A stretch of 64,000 nt of DNA. Origin: Antedon mediterranea (Eukaryota > Echinodermata > Crinoidea > Comatulida > Antedonidae). The position numbers were made by a program, and so were the translations under genes. The stretch is from NCBI RefSeq assembly GCF_964355755.1, contig NC_092678.1, forward strand, positions 25,090,365 through 25,154,364, in the 5' to 3' direction. Shown piece by piece: positions 31,054 through 60,206 of the stretch (its first letter is position 1; every line of letters begins with the position of its first letter). The notes beneath the pieces were generated by a model, which saw only the letters and a program-made list of their open reading frames with translations, was not told the origin of the DNA and did not search any database.

Positions 31054-36529
<5,476 letters not shown>

Positions 36530-37358: not shown

Positions 37359-40300
37359 TTATACATGTGTCTCTTTATCTGAATCCTCTTCTTCACTAAT
37401 TTTCTGTGTTTTTCCCCGAAGTTTGGTAATAATCTCTGCTATTGTTAGCATAATACCTACTATTAAGTAGTTGGCAGCAGCAAAGAAAAACGATATTTTG
37501 TAGTTTCCAATTTTATCATAAAGCGCTCCTGAAATGAAAAAGAAAATGTTGTGTCAATGTATCTTTTAGGAAAAACTACGGTGATGTCTTTTTAATAATA
37601 ATTTCTTTCAACTCACTTGGTTTGATTCTTGATGAGATTCTGCCTTTTCAAGATTTTTTGTTCATTGTCCAGTAATTTATGAGTTACGTCATTAACTATT
37701 ATTATGGCCGACATCTGTCACGAACAACAATTTCAATTAGTTTTACATTCATCTGAATGATGGATGAAACTAAGACAGGACTGTATAAAGCACCTTGATT
37801 GGTCCTATCATTGATCAAGGGCTTCTCTCATCCAGTGCCTAGCTTGTCCAGAAGTGCTTATTTCAAATTCCTGAGACCCCAGCCCCATAAATACTTGCAT
37901 TTAATAAATGAGTATTTCCTTACCTACTATGTAACCACCAAATATTGCAGTGAATCCTGAAGGAACAAGACTGATGCCATAAGCTCGAGCAAAGACGCGT
38001 TTTGGAACAAACTCCTTGACAATCGCTGGTATTTGCGGGATGTAGATGCCAAAGAAAAGTCCAGTTATTAACGAGAATGTTAGAAGAGACGGAAAAGATT
38101 GCGATACCGCCACAGCTGACATCGTGCACGTGATGACAAACATGCAGAAGATGAAGAGGTTATATTCTGAAATCCAACCAAAGTATAACGGTATCGCGTT
38201 CGCCACTCGTCCGGCAAGATTCCCAATTCCAAATGCGCCAAAGATTATCGAAGCTTGGAAATCGGTAACGCCTTTATATATTGCACTAGCGATCAGGTGT
38301 ACGTAGAATCCTGAATAACCAACACATATAAAACACGTCGCTACGGTCATTAGTATCAGACGTGGATATTTCTTAAACAATCGTAGATTGTGTAAAATTG
38401 TGTCTCGATCTTCATTATTTGTAATCACATCTATTGAACATTTTTTATCATCTTCTGACATCGGATAGAAGTCTTTACGGAAAATCAGAGTTGCGATAAC
38501 AACGCTGTGTAGAGATACCGCCCCCATTATCAGCAGTGAACCTCTCCATCCGTAATACATTTTTAGTACTGAGCACGCCAATGGTATTATTAGAATTCCG
38601 AGTCCGATTGCCGCAAAAAGAACTCCATTAGCGATGCTGACTGATCTCTTGTAGTTCAAATTCACATATATTACCATTGTTTGAAAACAAATGCAGACTC
38701 CTGCACCTAAAAAGTTTGAAAAATTGTAAAAACTGTTATTCATTTGTGAAAAAGATTATTTATTCCGTCTTTCAGTGCTAAAGGATTGATTTCTAAAGTG
38801 GGTTCAGTAGAACATGTACAATTTAATACAAACATAGAGTATATATAAATAATGAAATCAATTCAAGGTAAAACATACTTAATACTATTACTAATACTAT
38901 TTTGGATTAAATTTTTTTAAGTTGAAAGTGTCATAAATTTATAGTTGCTTTTTGTTGTTCCATAATTTGTGGTTGACCGATATACAAAAGTGCTTTTACC
39001 TTGTGTATTTTTTTTGGTATGATCTCTTTTTATCTGTAAAATGTTAAGTGAATGTTTAAACCTGTATGTTAAAGTTCGCAGAAAATAATTCTGTGCATGT
39101 TTAATCATGCTATAGGATATCTTTGTGTAGCCAGTAATTGCTCCAGCTATTCAAACTTGAGGTTTTATTGCTGTTTACACAGATCATATGCAAACAGTAG
39201 CATTATGACATTACATTCTACAGTATTATCTGGTTTCTTTACACTTAGTCTCAAATTAGTATTTACTTATGTATTGTGTAATATTTGTGATATCAAACGA
39301 GATTGGAAATATATCTTAATATAGGCTTAATCTATTGCTATCCATTGTGCTGGTTTTAATATACCTATCTGTCCTATCTCTATCTAACTAACGCTAACTG
39401 CTGTGTGTTGAACTAAAGCTCAGTCTACACTATCAAACTTTGTGACAACAAATTGTGATGTGCCTATATAATGGACATGATTATGTTATATCACTACCAT
39501 ATGTGGGCATATCACTACCATATTTGGGCACACATCGCATTAGTGTAGATTAGGGTTATGAAACAATTTTGACATAGATTATACAAATATTTATCTATTG
39601 TATATTGACCTTGTTTTTGTCAGGTCCAGGTCAAATTTCATAATGCTACTACCTTCATTGTTTATGTCCAAGTTATTTACCAAATTATTATTTCCTTATG
39701 TCATGCAATTACTGCAGTTTTTATTTAAGCTCTGTCTACACTATCTAGTTTGACAAAAAAAGTATGATGCACCCAAATATGGTAGTGATATGCCCAAATA
39801 TGGTAGGGATATACCCAAATATGGTAGTGATATACCCAAATATGGTAGTGATATGACATCATCATGTCCATATATGGGCACGTCACATTTTTTTGTTACA
39901 TAAAGTTTGTTAGTGTAGACAGAGCTTTAGACAAAAAAAGTCCTGGAAAAGTATTTTGATAAAGTACTGTAGGAAACAATATTTTAGTTATTATTTTATT
40001 TATTTTTTTTAGTAAAGTTACCTGTCATGAGTGAGTGTGAAAAGAATAGGTGCCAGACTTGAGTGACCTGTGAACTGATCATCATTCCTAATGAGTATGA
40101 CAACCCTCCAATCACAACTGTACTTCTGTATCCATACTTTCTGCTCATTGTTGAAGCTAAAGGACCTGATATAAAATACATCATGTTAGCGTTATTCGAA
40201 AAGGAAATACTTCAACCATGGAGGTATTTATACCTCCATGCTTCAACATTTTATTGATCTAGAATCTTACCTAGTGGCATGCTGTTAAGTCTTAGTTTAG

Positions 40301-40907
40301 TCTGCTTAAGCTATGACTCGGGGCAACTTAATACCTAACAGTGCTGTTCCCATGCTTAAGATATGACTTACTTAAGTATCATATTACTTATCTAAGCCAT
40401 TGCTCAGACTACATCTTACCATGATCTTACTTACCTAAAGTGCTGTTAATCCAATGTTTAAGATATGACTTACTTAAGCATCATATTACTTATCTAGTGG
40501 TTTTATTAGTACAATGCTTAAGCTATTACTCAGGCAACATCTTACTTACCTAACGGTGCTGTTAGTCCGATACTTAAGCTATTACTCAGGCAACATCTCA
40601 CTTACCTAACAGTGCTGTAAGTCCTATACTTATGCTATTATTCAGACAACATCTTACTTACCTAACGGTGCTGTTAGTCCGATACTTTAGCTATTATTCA
40701 GACAACATCTTACTTACCTAACAGTGCTGTTAGTCCTATACTTAAGCTATTAGCTATCCCAACCAATCCGGAAGTGGTGTTGAACTCATCCTTGATGGAA
40801 ACTAAGAAGAAGCTGAAACAAGGAATAGCACTTCCAATGGATGTGAGAGCAATGATGTGCATGCCAGCCAAAAGCAAAACCTCCCTACAAGAACATACGC
40901 AAGCCAT
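37359..40907 (-). CDS. SLC16-like monocarboxylate transporter, paralogue A, 428 aa
   Basis: Exons on the minus strand: 40718-40907, 40022-40165, 37924-38706 and 37359-37528 (TAA). Phases are 1-1 throughout, 1,287 nt. A proton-linked carrier of the major facilitator superfamily is expected at a cell membrane. TM1 region: LLLAGMHIIALTSIGSAIPC. The loop after TM2 reads GPLASTMSRKYGYRSTVVIGG, matching the MCT pattern of a Gly-Pro-Leu start and Arg-Tyr-Gly-Tyr-Arg core. Later segments include GNLAGRVANAIPLYF and FGIYIPQIPAIVKEFV. The C-terminal exon ends in an acidic tail (KISEEEDSDKETHV). The ATG at 40905-40907 (MACVCSCREV) is the first in frame; upstream in-frame sequence has no ATG. The substrate cannot be told from sequence. 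Intron 1 carries a tandem array of the exon 1 donor. Confidence 0.88.
39417..39545. repeat. Family B hairpin MITE, copy 11
   Basis: AGCTCAGTCTACACTATCAA, then TGTGATGTGCCTATATAATG and two internal units. In intron 2 of SLC16-like A. Confidence 0.7.
39727..39930. repeat. Family B hairpin MITE, copy 12
   Basis: Both ends are present: AAGCTCTGTCTACACTATCT and TTGTTAGTGTAGACAGAGCT. Four internal units CCCAAATATGGTAGTGATAT. Confidence 0.8.
40217..40240. repeat. Palindrome related to 7903-7920
   Basis: CCATGGAGGTATTTATACCT followed by CCATG. It has the same arms as the 18-bp palindrome with a longer spacer. Confidence 0.5.
40262..40745 (-). repeat. 56-bp array of duplicated splice donors in SLC16-like A
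   Basis: Read on the minus strand, each unit repeats the last bases of exon 1 plus the donor: ACTAACAGCACTGTTAG|GT then AAGTAAGATGTTG. The real donor is at 40716-40717. Intact extra donors are at 40660-40661, 40604-40605, 40548-40549 and 40433-40434, and weaker remnants lie further left. Spacing is 56 bp in the first four. Confidence 0.85.
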
Positions 40908-57535: not shown

Positions 57536-60206
57536 TTAAACTTTGTTAGCCGATTCCGTGGGAGGCCTATATTTTGTTATCCATTTTAAACTGAACGCGA
57601 CTTCTCCTATAATCATCAGGACAGCATTTAGTATAAATATTCCTCCTGCGATGAAAAATGACAGTCTATATAACCCGCTTGCATCGTATATCAGACCTGA
57701 AATATAATAATAATGATATTCTTTAGATTAACTTAAGTTTTTGCGTAGACGTGACGTGTTCACGTGTCTAGAATGCAGGCCCTCTAAAATTCTCCACGAA
57801 AACAGGAGTCATGCCCCATTGGTATTTAAACTTACCTATAACATATCCAGCGAACATACAAACGACTCCTCCTGGTAAAATAATAAGTCCATAAACATCT
57901 TTGAATCTTGTTACACAAACTGATTCACGTACAATAGGTGGAAAGATTATAAGGTACCATCCAATAAAATAACCAATTGCCGCCGAACATATTATAATAG
58001 CATACACATTATAAATATAATCAAAGATAATTGTAAGTGTTCCTGTGATTAACATTGACGTTATAAATTCTGTAGATTTTTTCATTAAGTTTATATGTCC
58101 TGGTACGAAGGCTGTAAGTCGACCGATAAGGCTACCAAGCCCATAGGAACCTAACGCAAACGCCGCATTTCTCTCTGATATTCCCTTGTAAATCACACTT
58201 GCGATGAAGTGAATAAAAAATCCAATATAAGCATACTCTGCAAGTGATCGTACGGTACACAGTAGAATAAGGTACGGGTACTTCAAATATAAATGTAAAG
58301 TGGAAATGTCGTCTATCGAATCGCGTCTATCTGTTTTGTCCGACGTGTGACCATCATTTAAAAAGCTGGTTTCGACCGTATTCACATCTTCAACTATCCC
58401 ATTGCTAGTTAATTTCATCTCCGTATTGTTCTTAAGTCGTCGCTTTTTGGAAAATTTTCTAAATATAAAGAGAGAAATTGGCATAGCGTTCATAGATAGC
58501 GCACTTAATATCAGCAAAGTTCCTCGAAATCCGAAATAAACTTTTGCCTCGGCACAGAATATTGGAGTTACGAGCATGCCTGACGCTGAGCCGGCGTACA
58601 GGAAGCCGATGTACACAGGAGAGCCGTTGAAATAATGACCTATTATGAAGATGGTACTCGTAGCCATCAGAGAAAAACCCAAACCTAAAATTAAAAAAAA
58701 ATAAATGTATAGCAACTGAAGTGTGTGTATATATTATGTTTCAATTGTTAGTTTTTTTAGTACGAGAATTGCCCAGGATCGTCAAGCATGGTATCGTATT
58801 CATTTGCGTTTTTCGATCACAACAACACGCACGTACGGAATATATATTGCACAGTTCTTTTCTTAAACAAATTATTAATAGACACATTTTTACGGTGTTT
58901 ATCCGGCCACCACCAGACACAACTCAGTGTGACCGTAGCTTAAATTAATGTTTTCTGCAACTTTTCTGAAGTGACTTAGAATGTCTTACCTGTTAGAATG
59001 TCTTACCTGTTAGAATGTCTTACCTGTGACTTAGAATGTCTTACCTGTTACTTAGAATGTCTTACCTGTGACTTAGAATGTCTTACCTGTTACTTAGAAT
59101 GTCTTACCTGTTACTTAGAATGTCTTACCTGTTACTTAGAATGTCTTACCTGTTACCTGTTACTTAGAATGTCTTACCTGTTACCTGTTACTTAGAATGT
59201 CTTACCTGTTACCTGTTACTTAGAATGTCTTACCTGTTAGAATGTCTTACCTGTTACTTAGAATGTCTTACCTGTTACTTAGAATGTCTTACCTGTTAGA
59301 ATGTCTTACCTGTTACCTGTTACTTAGAATGTCTTACCTGTTAGAATGTCTTACCTGTTACTTAGAATGTCTTACCTGTTACTTAGAATGTCTTACCTGT
59401 TACTTAGAATGTCTTACCTGTTACTTAGAATGTCTTACCTGTTACTTAGAATGTCTTACCTGTTACTTAGAATGTCTTACCTGTTACTTAGAATGTCTTA
59501 CCTGTTACTTAGAATGTCTTACCTGTTACCAATGAATGTGTAAAGAACAACTGCCATACAGCTTTTGTTTGTGACGTCATCAGTAACCCACTGGAGACCA
59601 TACAGCATCCGATGACAATTCCTTCCTTGTCGCCGATTCGCTTTGTCACGACGACTGCCAACGGGCCTACAATGTTACCAAAACTCATTTTTATTTAAGA
59701 AAACAAAACGACGTACAGACAACAACAAATCACGTACACACGCGTCGTGACGTTTGCTCCCAAATCCTTCCAACAATGCGTCGCGCACGCTATTTGCGAT
59801 AAACCAATGCGCAGATACATTTTAACCTTAACATGATATATTTTTAAGCTATGTCTATACACTATCAAACTAGTCTGACACAAAGGTGTGATGTGTCCAA
59901 ATATGGAGGTGATATGCCAAAATATGGCAGTGATATGACATCGTCATGTCCATATTTGAGTACATCGTGCACATTTTTTTTATAACATAAAGTTTGATAG
60001 TGTGGACAGAGCTTTAGGTACATACCGAATACAGATATTGCTCCAAAGAATAAGCTATGTGCCAGTCCAATAGTGGCTGTTGAACTGCCTTGCAGGCTGA
60101 GTGTGAAGTCCACAAGAAAGAAGCTGATGGCAGGCCCAGCAATCCCCATTGTCAACAGATGGGAGACAAGAATACCGACGAGGGTTGTCAATTCTTTCCA
60201 CTCCAT
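57536..60206 (-). CDS. SLC16-like monocarboxylate transporter, paralogue C, 444 aa
   Basis: Exons on the minus strand: 60026-60206, 59523-59666, 57836-58684 and 57536-57696 (TAA), 1,335 nt. Phases and the 144-bp exon 2 match paralogues A and B. Exon 1 starts at ATG 60206 (MEWKELTTLVGILVSHLL). Exon 2 begins GPLAVVVTKRIGDKEGIVIG, a weaker form of the MCT loop motif. Exon 3 contains GSLIGRLTAFVPGHINL and a PPIVRESVCVTRFKDVYG block before the last helices. A basic loop KKRRLKN follows TM6. It is the most diverged of the three. An AG acceptor near 60252 suggests a spliced 5'UTR. The donor of exon 2 is followed by 25 further copies of the same donor; a family B element sits 10 bp from the donor of exon 1. 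Confidence 0.85.
58979..59530 (-). repeat. Minisatellite of 26 splice-donor units in SLC16-like C
   Basis: The minus-strand unit is ACAGGTAAGACATTCTAAGTA (21 bp, with shorter 17-bp and longer composite variants). I count 26 occurrences of CAGGTAAGAC, and the rightmost is the actual exon 2 donor (exon ends at 59523). The ATG-containing open frames on the plus strand come from this repeat. Confidence 0.95.
59700..59805. repeat. Family C half element
   Basis: ACAACAAATCACGTACACAC, GCGTCGTGACGTTTGCTCCC and ACAATGCGTCGCGCACGC match the right arm of the hairpin at 8575-8730. Confidence 0.65.
59847..60015. repeat. Family B hairpin MITE, copy 15
   Basis: AAGCTATGTCTATACACTAT at the left and TTTGATAGTGTGGACAGAGC at the right. 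Two internal units. In intron 1 of SLC16-like C, beside the donor. Confidence 0.75.

Follow-up and report, generated by a model that had tools for sequence, protein, structure and literature searches.

What does it mean for an exon to be followed by 26 identical 5' splice sites in tandem, and which of them would be used? The question is raised by an SLC16-like gene in a 64,000-nucleotide (nt) stretch of the genome of the crinoid Antedon mediterranea (contig NC_092678.1, positions 25,090,365 to 25,154,364; this whole stretch is referred to as the window, and unprefixed positions are counted from its first base). The donor of exon 2 of this gene is reiterated through most of intron 2. The array is best understood, with a probability of roughly 0.85, as a neutral minisatellite of the kind called mirages in amphioxus, spliced at its first donor; all copies but the first are probably ignored by cells. 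The class is already known; the present addition to it lies in how many cases a single genome holds, in their occurrence in conserved single-copy genes and in the chance to test donor choice.

The exon 2 junction and its tandem copies

The host gene matches MFS_1 (E=7e-20) and is similar to MCT2 (monocarboxylate transporter 2; E=9.6e-8), as is proper to a member of the SLC16/MCT family. Its relevant features are the following (a slash marks an exon-intron boundary).

60026..60206, minus strand: first recognised coding exon (MEWKELTTLVGIL...VFG), with a putative start codon
59523..59667, minus strand: exon 2 of the SLC16-like gene (MFS_1, MCT2), its last 7 bases, GTAACAG (codons V-T-G), being the exonic part of the repeat unit
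59516..59525, minus strand: authentic donor CAG/GTAAGAC, copy 1 of the array, exon end at 59523, placed by the gapless join relative to MCT2
58974..59529, minus strand: donor minisatellite (mirage), 26 x CAGGTAAGAC in 21-, 17- and 28-nt units, from Tandem Repeats Finder (TRF) and copy count
58685..59522, minus strand: intron 2, 838 nt with the first donor, about 65% of it array
58684, minus strand: start of exon 3, which follows the acceptor ...TTTTAATTTTAG/GTTTGGG and extends to lower coordinates

Exon 2 ends in ACA G/GT. Joining it to exon 3 from the first donor yields THSLVTG/LGFSL, without a gap relative to MCT2, which bears out an initial annotation of this DNA in taking copy 1 to be the true donor. 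The same annotation held that splicing at any later copy adds GGT AAG ACA TTC TAA and truncates the protein; translation from donor 2 agrees with this, running T-G-K-T-F into an early stop. Of the bases in the tandem unit, 7 are exonic and 14 intronic, and the unit thus spans the boundary, as mirage units do; the array was therefore seeded across the exon-intron junction. In SLC16 paralogs the corresponding intron has one donor only (GTAACAG/GTATG and GTTACAG/GTAAG are examples), from which it follows that the array was added later.

An exact pattern count on the minus strand of the window confirms the 26 copies, and the unit, that had been reported: CAGGTAAGAC recurs with first intron bases at 59522, 59501 ... 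58989. (TRF describes the same segment, 58974-59529, as 26.1 copies of period 21 with 89% matches and 7% indels.) Successive copies are spaced by 21 bases sixteen times, by 17 bases five times and by 28 bases four times. The 21-nt unit GTAAGACATTCTAAGTAACAG accounts for 14 of the 26; five units are of 17 nt, lacking GTAA, four of 28 nt have an extra GTAACAG, two carry AAGTCACAG, and the last continues into single-copy intron. Units 1-8 are identical, and variants (AAGTCAC and the 17-nt form) are found toward the intron end, a distribution of homogenised units and diverged edge units that is also typical of mirages. Outside the array, CAGGTAAG occurs only twice on the minus strand of the window and not at all on its plus strand, which places the array far beyond chance. 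Four CAGGTAAC sites additional to the 26 bring the CAGGT total to 30.

All 26 donors are the same 9-mer, CAGGTAAGA. Substitutions in the array hit one site only (3 of 26 copies) and the indels all lie outside the donor, a pattern that suits recent homogenisation; the apparent perfection of the donors follows from the near-identity of the units over their whole length. Near-identical units are also prone to collapse or expansion, and an assembly artefact might have inflated a few real copies, but the varied unit types follow one another in non-trivial order, many independent arrays with different units are found in the genome, and a second array in the window is diverged (see below), all of which makes an artefact very improbable.

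The anatomy suggests how the array may have arisen. The seed would have been a short stretch duplicated in tandem over the boundary of exon 2 and intron 2, a slip between the near repeats GTAACAG (in the exon) and GTCACTTCAG (in the intron, where the last unit ends) generating the 21-nt unit, which would then have expanded into the intron and been homogenised. Splicing would keep to the exon-adjacent donor and leave the array nearly neutral. Such an array would persist because a donor copied further into the intron does not disturb the junction in use.

Precedents and recurrence in other genes

The initial annotation knew of no described class of donor-site minisatellites. This is contradicted by the amphioxus mirages (PMC3087553) and by human IFI6 (PMC4526556). 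Mirages are minisatellites of the amphioxus genes Adh3 (Canestro et al. 2002 NAR 30:2871, cited therein), the globins BflGb6 and BflGb9, and others; the Adh3 unit measures 10-72 bp, several gene loci are involved, units are homogenised, and reverse transcription PCR (RT-PCR) suggests that regular splicing is undisturbed (PMC3087553). The 26-copy array shares with them a unit that spans the exon-intron boundary, AG/GT splice signals within the units (here in all 26 CAGGTAAGAC) and homogenisation. Length polymorphism and normal splicing have been shown for amphioxus mirages; the donor-side array of the SLC16-like gene is represented by one haplotype.

In human IFI6 (6-16/G1P3) a minisatellite with several donors likewise lies at an exon end, its units carrying the donors (Turri et al. 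1995 NAR 23:1854, as cited in PMC4526556). Two downstream units are used there and give rise to protein isoforms; the SLC16-like unit, in contrast, is not open in frame (it reads T-G-K-T-F-stop) and distal use would truncate the protein. A model of intron gain by AGGT tandem duplication (the Rogers model, discussed in PMC3087553) resembles the present case in invoking duplication across AG/GT proto-splice sites, but here the copies lie within an old intron common to the paralogs, and a new one is not evident. In human genes, too, tandem repeats that change introns are reported at exon-intron boundaries (PMC2812944).

The SLC16-like array is not alone in its genome. Genome-wide pattern searches for three donor-like words in tandem yielded many arrays; the flanks were inspected among the matches listed, and the array counts that follow are lower bounds. 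At least 10 arrays beyond the window start at coding-exon donors and copy the exon end, and the genome holds at least a dozen donor arrays of the mirage kind.

40270..40752, minus strand: second, older mirage in the window, 56-nt unit, arising from the donor of exon 1 (whose last base is 40718) in the neighbouring SLC16 paralog
DHX8 exon end: donor array, 37-nt unit
IMP4 exon end: donor array, 27-nt unit
SUGCT exon end (L065): donor array, 20-nt unit
DHRS1 exon end: donor array, 27-nt unit
C2:40519520-40520035, minus strand: donor array at a MAGUK p55 PDZ exon (L075), 36-nt unit
L058: donor array, 41-nt unit, exon predicted from open frame and acceptor
L059: donor array, 31-nt unit, exon predicted likewise
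L064: donor array, 32-nt unit, exon predicted likewise
L068: donor array, 17-nt unit, exon predicted likewise
L074: donor array, 41-nt unit, exon predicted likewise

Homology was checked for DHX8, IMP4, DHRS1, SUGCT and the PDZ exon, and first-donor joins are gapless relative to human DHX8, IMP4 and DHRS1. DHX8 and IMP4 each have one recognisable copy in the genome, so that any functional mRNA has to be made from the gene that carries the array. Use of donor 2 would break the frame or add a stop in 10 of the 11 arrays checked, the MAGUK array being the exception. (Its unit, KVLQGGMIDKQG, stays in frame and contains no stop; splicing at distal donors would make the PDZ domain longer, in the manner of IFI6.) That DHX8 and IMP4 must stay intact, together with the amphioxus RT-PCR, is what argues for first-donor use at the SLC16-like array as well, and the gapless first-donor joins lend indirect support to undisturbed splicing.

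The mirage reports that were found are few and all from amphioxus. The frequency of arrays in conserved genes of Antedon suggests that introns commonly grow in this way, that such growth is tolerated, and that it may supply new introns.

Donor-base conservation and the choice of donor

Do the repeated donors do anything? If they did, their bases might be expected to outlast the rest of the unit, and the initial annotation held that they resist decay, suggesting a comparison of GTAAG bases with other unit positions. That comparison, run on nine informative donor arrays pooled, puts the rate of change of GTRAG at 0.55 of the unit average, which is not significant (p=0.20); shift tests for donor selection are not significant for single arrays or for the pool. 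Individual arrays point in opposite directions: none of 45 changes in the DHX8 array falls in donor bases, 18 of 114 do in L059 (18.4 expected), and all nine do in the SUGCT array. With L059 at expectation, and with several donors of the 40752-40270 array lost (to ATAAG and GTATT), the claim of resistance to decay finds no support.

Donor arrays are also not in excess over chance. The genome contains 10,619 occurrences of CAGGTAAG and 6,255 of the reversed motif, from which about 41% of CAGGTAAG sites may be real donors (a rough figure, since repeats inflate both counts); 5 of 9 CAGGTAAG arrays lie at real donors (p=0.29 relative to that expectation), as random seeding would give. For a control motif, GAATGGAC, none of the 3 arrays inspected lies at an exon end.

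These results bear on the functions that have been proposed for the array. In a splicing switch or tuner of nonsense-mediated decay (NMD), some transcripts would use distal donors, all of which add the stop-bearing GGT AAG ACA TTC TAA, and would be degraded, array length setting expression. The 26 identical 9-mers, the early stop at donor 2 and the precedent of IFI6, where splicing does take place at distal repeat donors (PMC4526556), speak for such a device. The donor bases are, on the other hand, not significantly better kept than their surroundings and have decayed in older arrays, the same anatomy recurs in unrelated genes, DHX8 and IMP4 among them, and amphioxus mirages are apparently spliced normally; the proposal is accordingly improbable. 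Still harder to credit is a U1 small nuclear ribonucleoprotein sink or shield, in which many intronic U1 sites would hold back premature polyadenylation or help to define the exon: 26 strong U1-complementary sites do lie within 550 nt, but donor-specific conservation is lacking, intron 2 is only 838 nt long, and arrays are sporadic, paralogs having none at this intron. Among the meanings offered in the initial annotation, the minisatellite seeded at an exon edge thus stands, and for the U1 sink, the switch and the NMD tuner no evidence was found.

Several points weigh against the neutral mirage. Distal donors may be used and their products removed by NMD, the array being known here from DNA. 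The copy number in the assembly may be wrong. The pooled donor rate is below average, and weak selection may therefore act. The exons of L058, L059, L064, L068 and L074 are predictions from open frame and acceptor, and the searches were confined to three donor motifs, among the matches listed.

A strict rule would go further than the neutral mirage: the donor adjacent to the exon would be used despite dozens of identical strong ones, and genes, essential ones included, would be free to gather donor arrays in great number. This is put forward tentatively and is open to considerable doubt. Were first-donor use to hold, position and not strength would decide among identical donors, and were the rule true, the genome would amount to a set of natural experiments on 5' splice site competition. 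With tens of identical donors in tandem per array, RNA reads over a dozen genes would show if position alone decides the 5' splice site.

Donor words away from exon ends, and other repeats

Donor-word arrays also occur away from any sense exon end (L057, L060, L061, L063, L066, L067, L070-L073, L076 and L077). L061 (C6:1773583-1773626, minus strand) consists of three tandem TTTTTTCAG/GTAAGT units, which juxtapose acceptor and donor in the manner of recursive splice sites; no exon is seen nearby. At L077 (C3:18961900-18964900) a AAGGTAAG array adjoins the apparent degenerate reading frame of a reverse-transcriptase element.

A dispersed-repeat origin of the 26-copy array was considered and rejected: a search with the array DNA matched only a 17-nt satellite on C9 at 18.178 Mb (69-73% alike, unit TCCCCTGAATTAGAATG, without a donor), judged to be a weak or chance likeness. 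That satellite itself runs to 100 copies of TCCCCTGAATTAGAATG (L003, 962-2685; C9, about 18.18 Mb). Within the window, 21-nt arrays of CATATCACTACCATATTTGGG at 32716-33096, 36215-36283 and 59888-59937, among others, lie in or near apparent elements of the miniature inverted-repeat transposable element (MITE) type.
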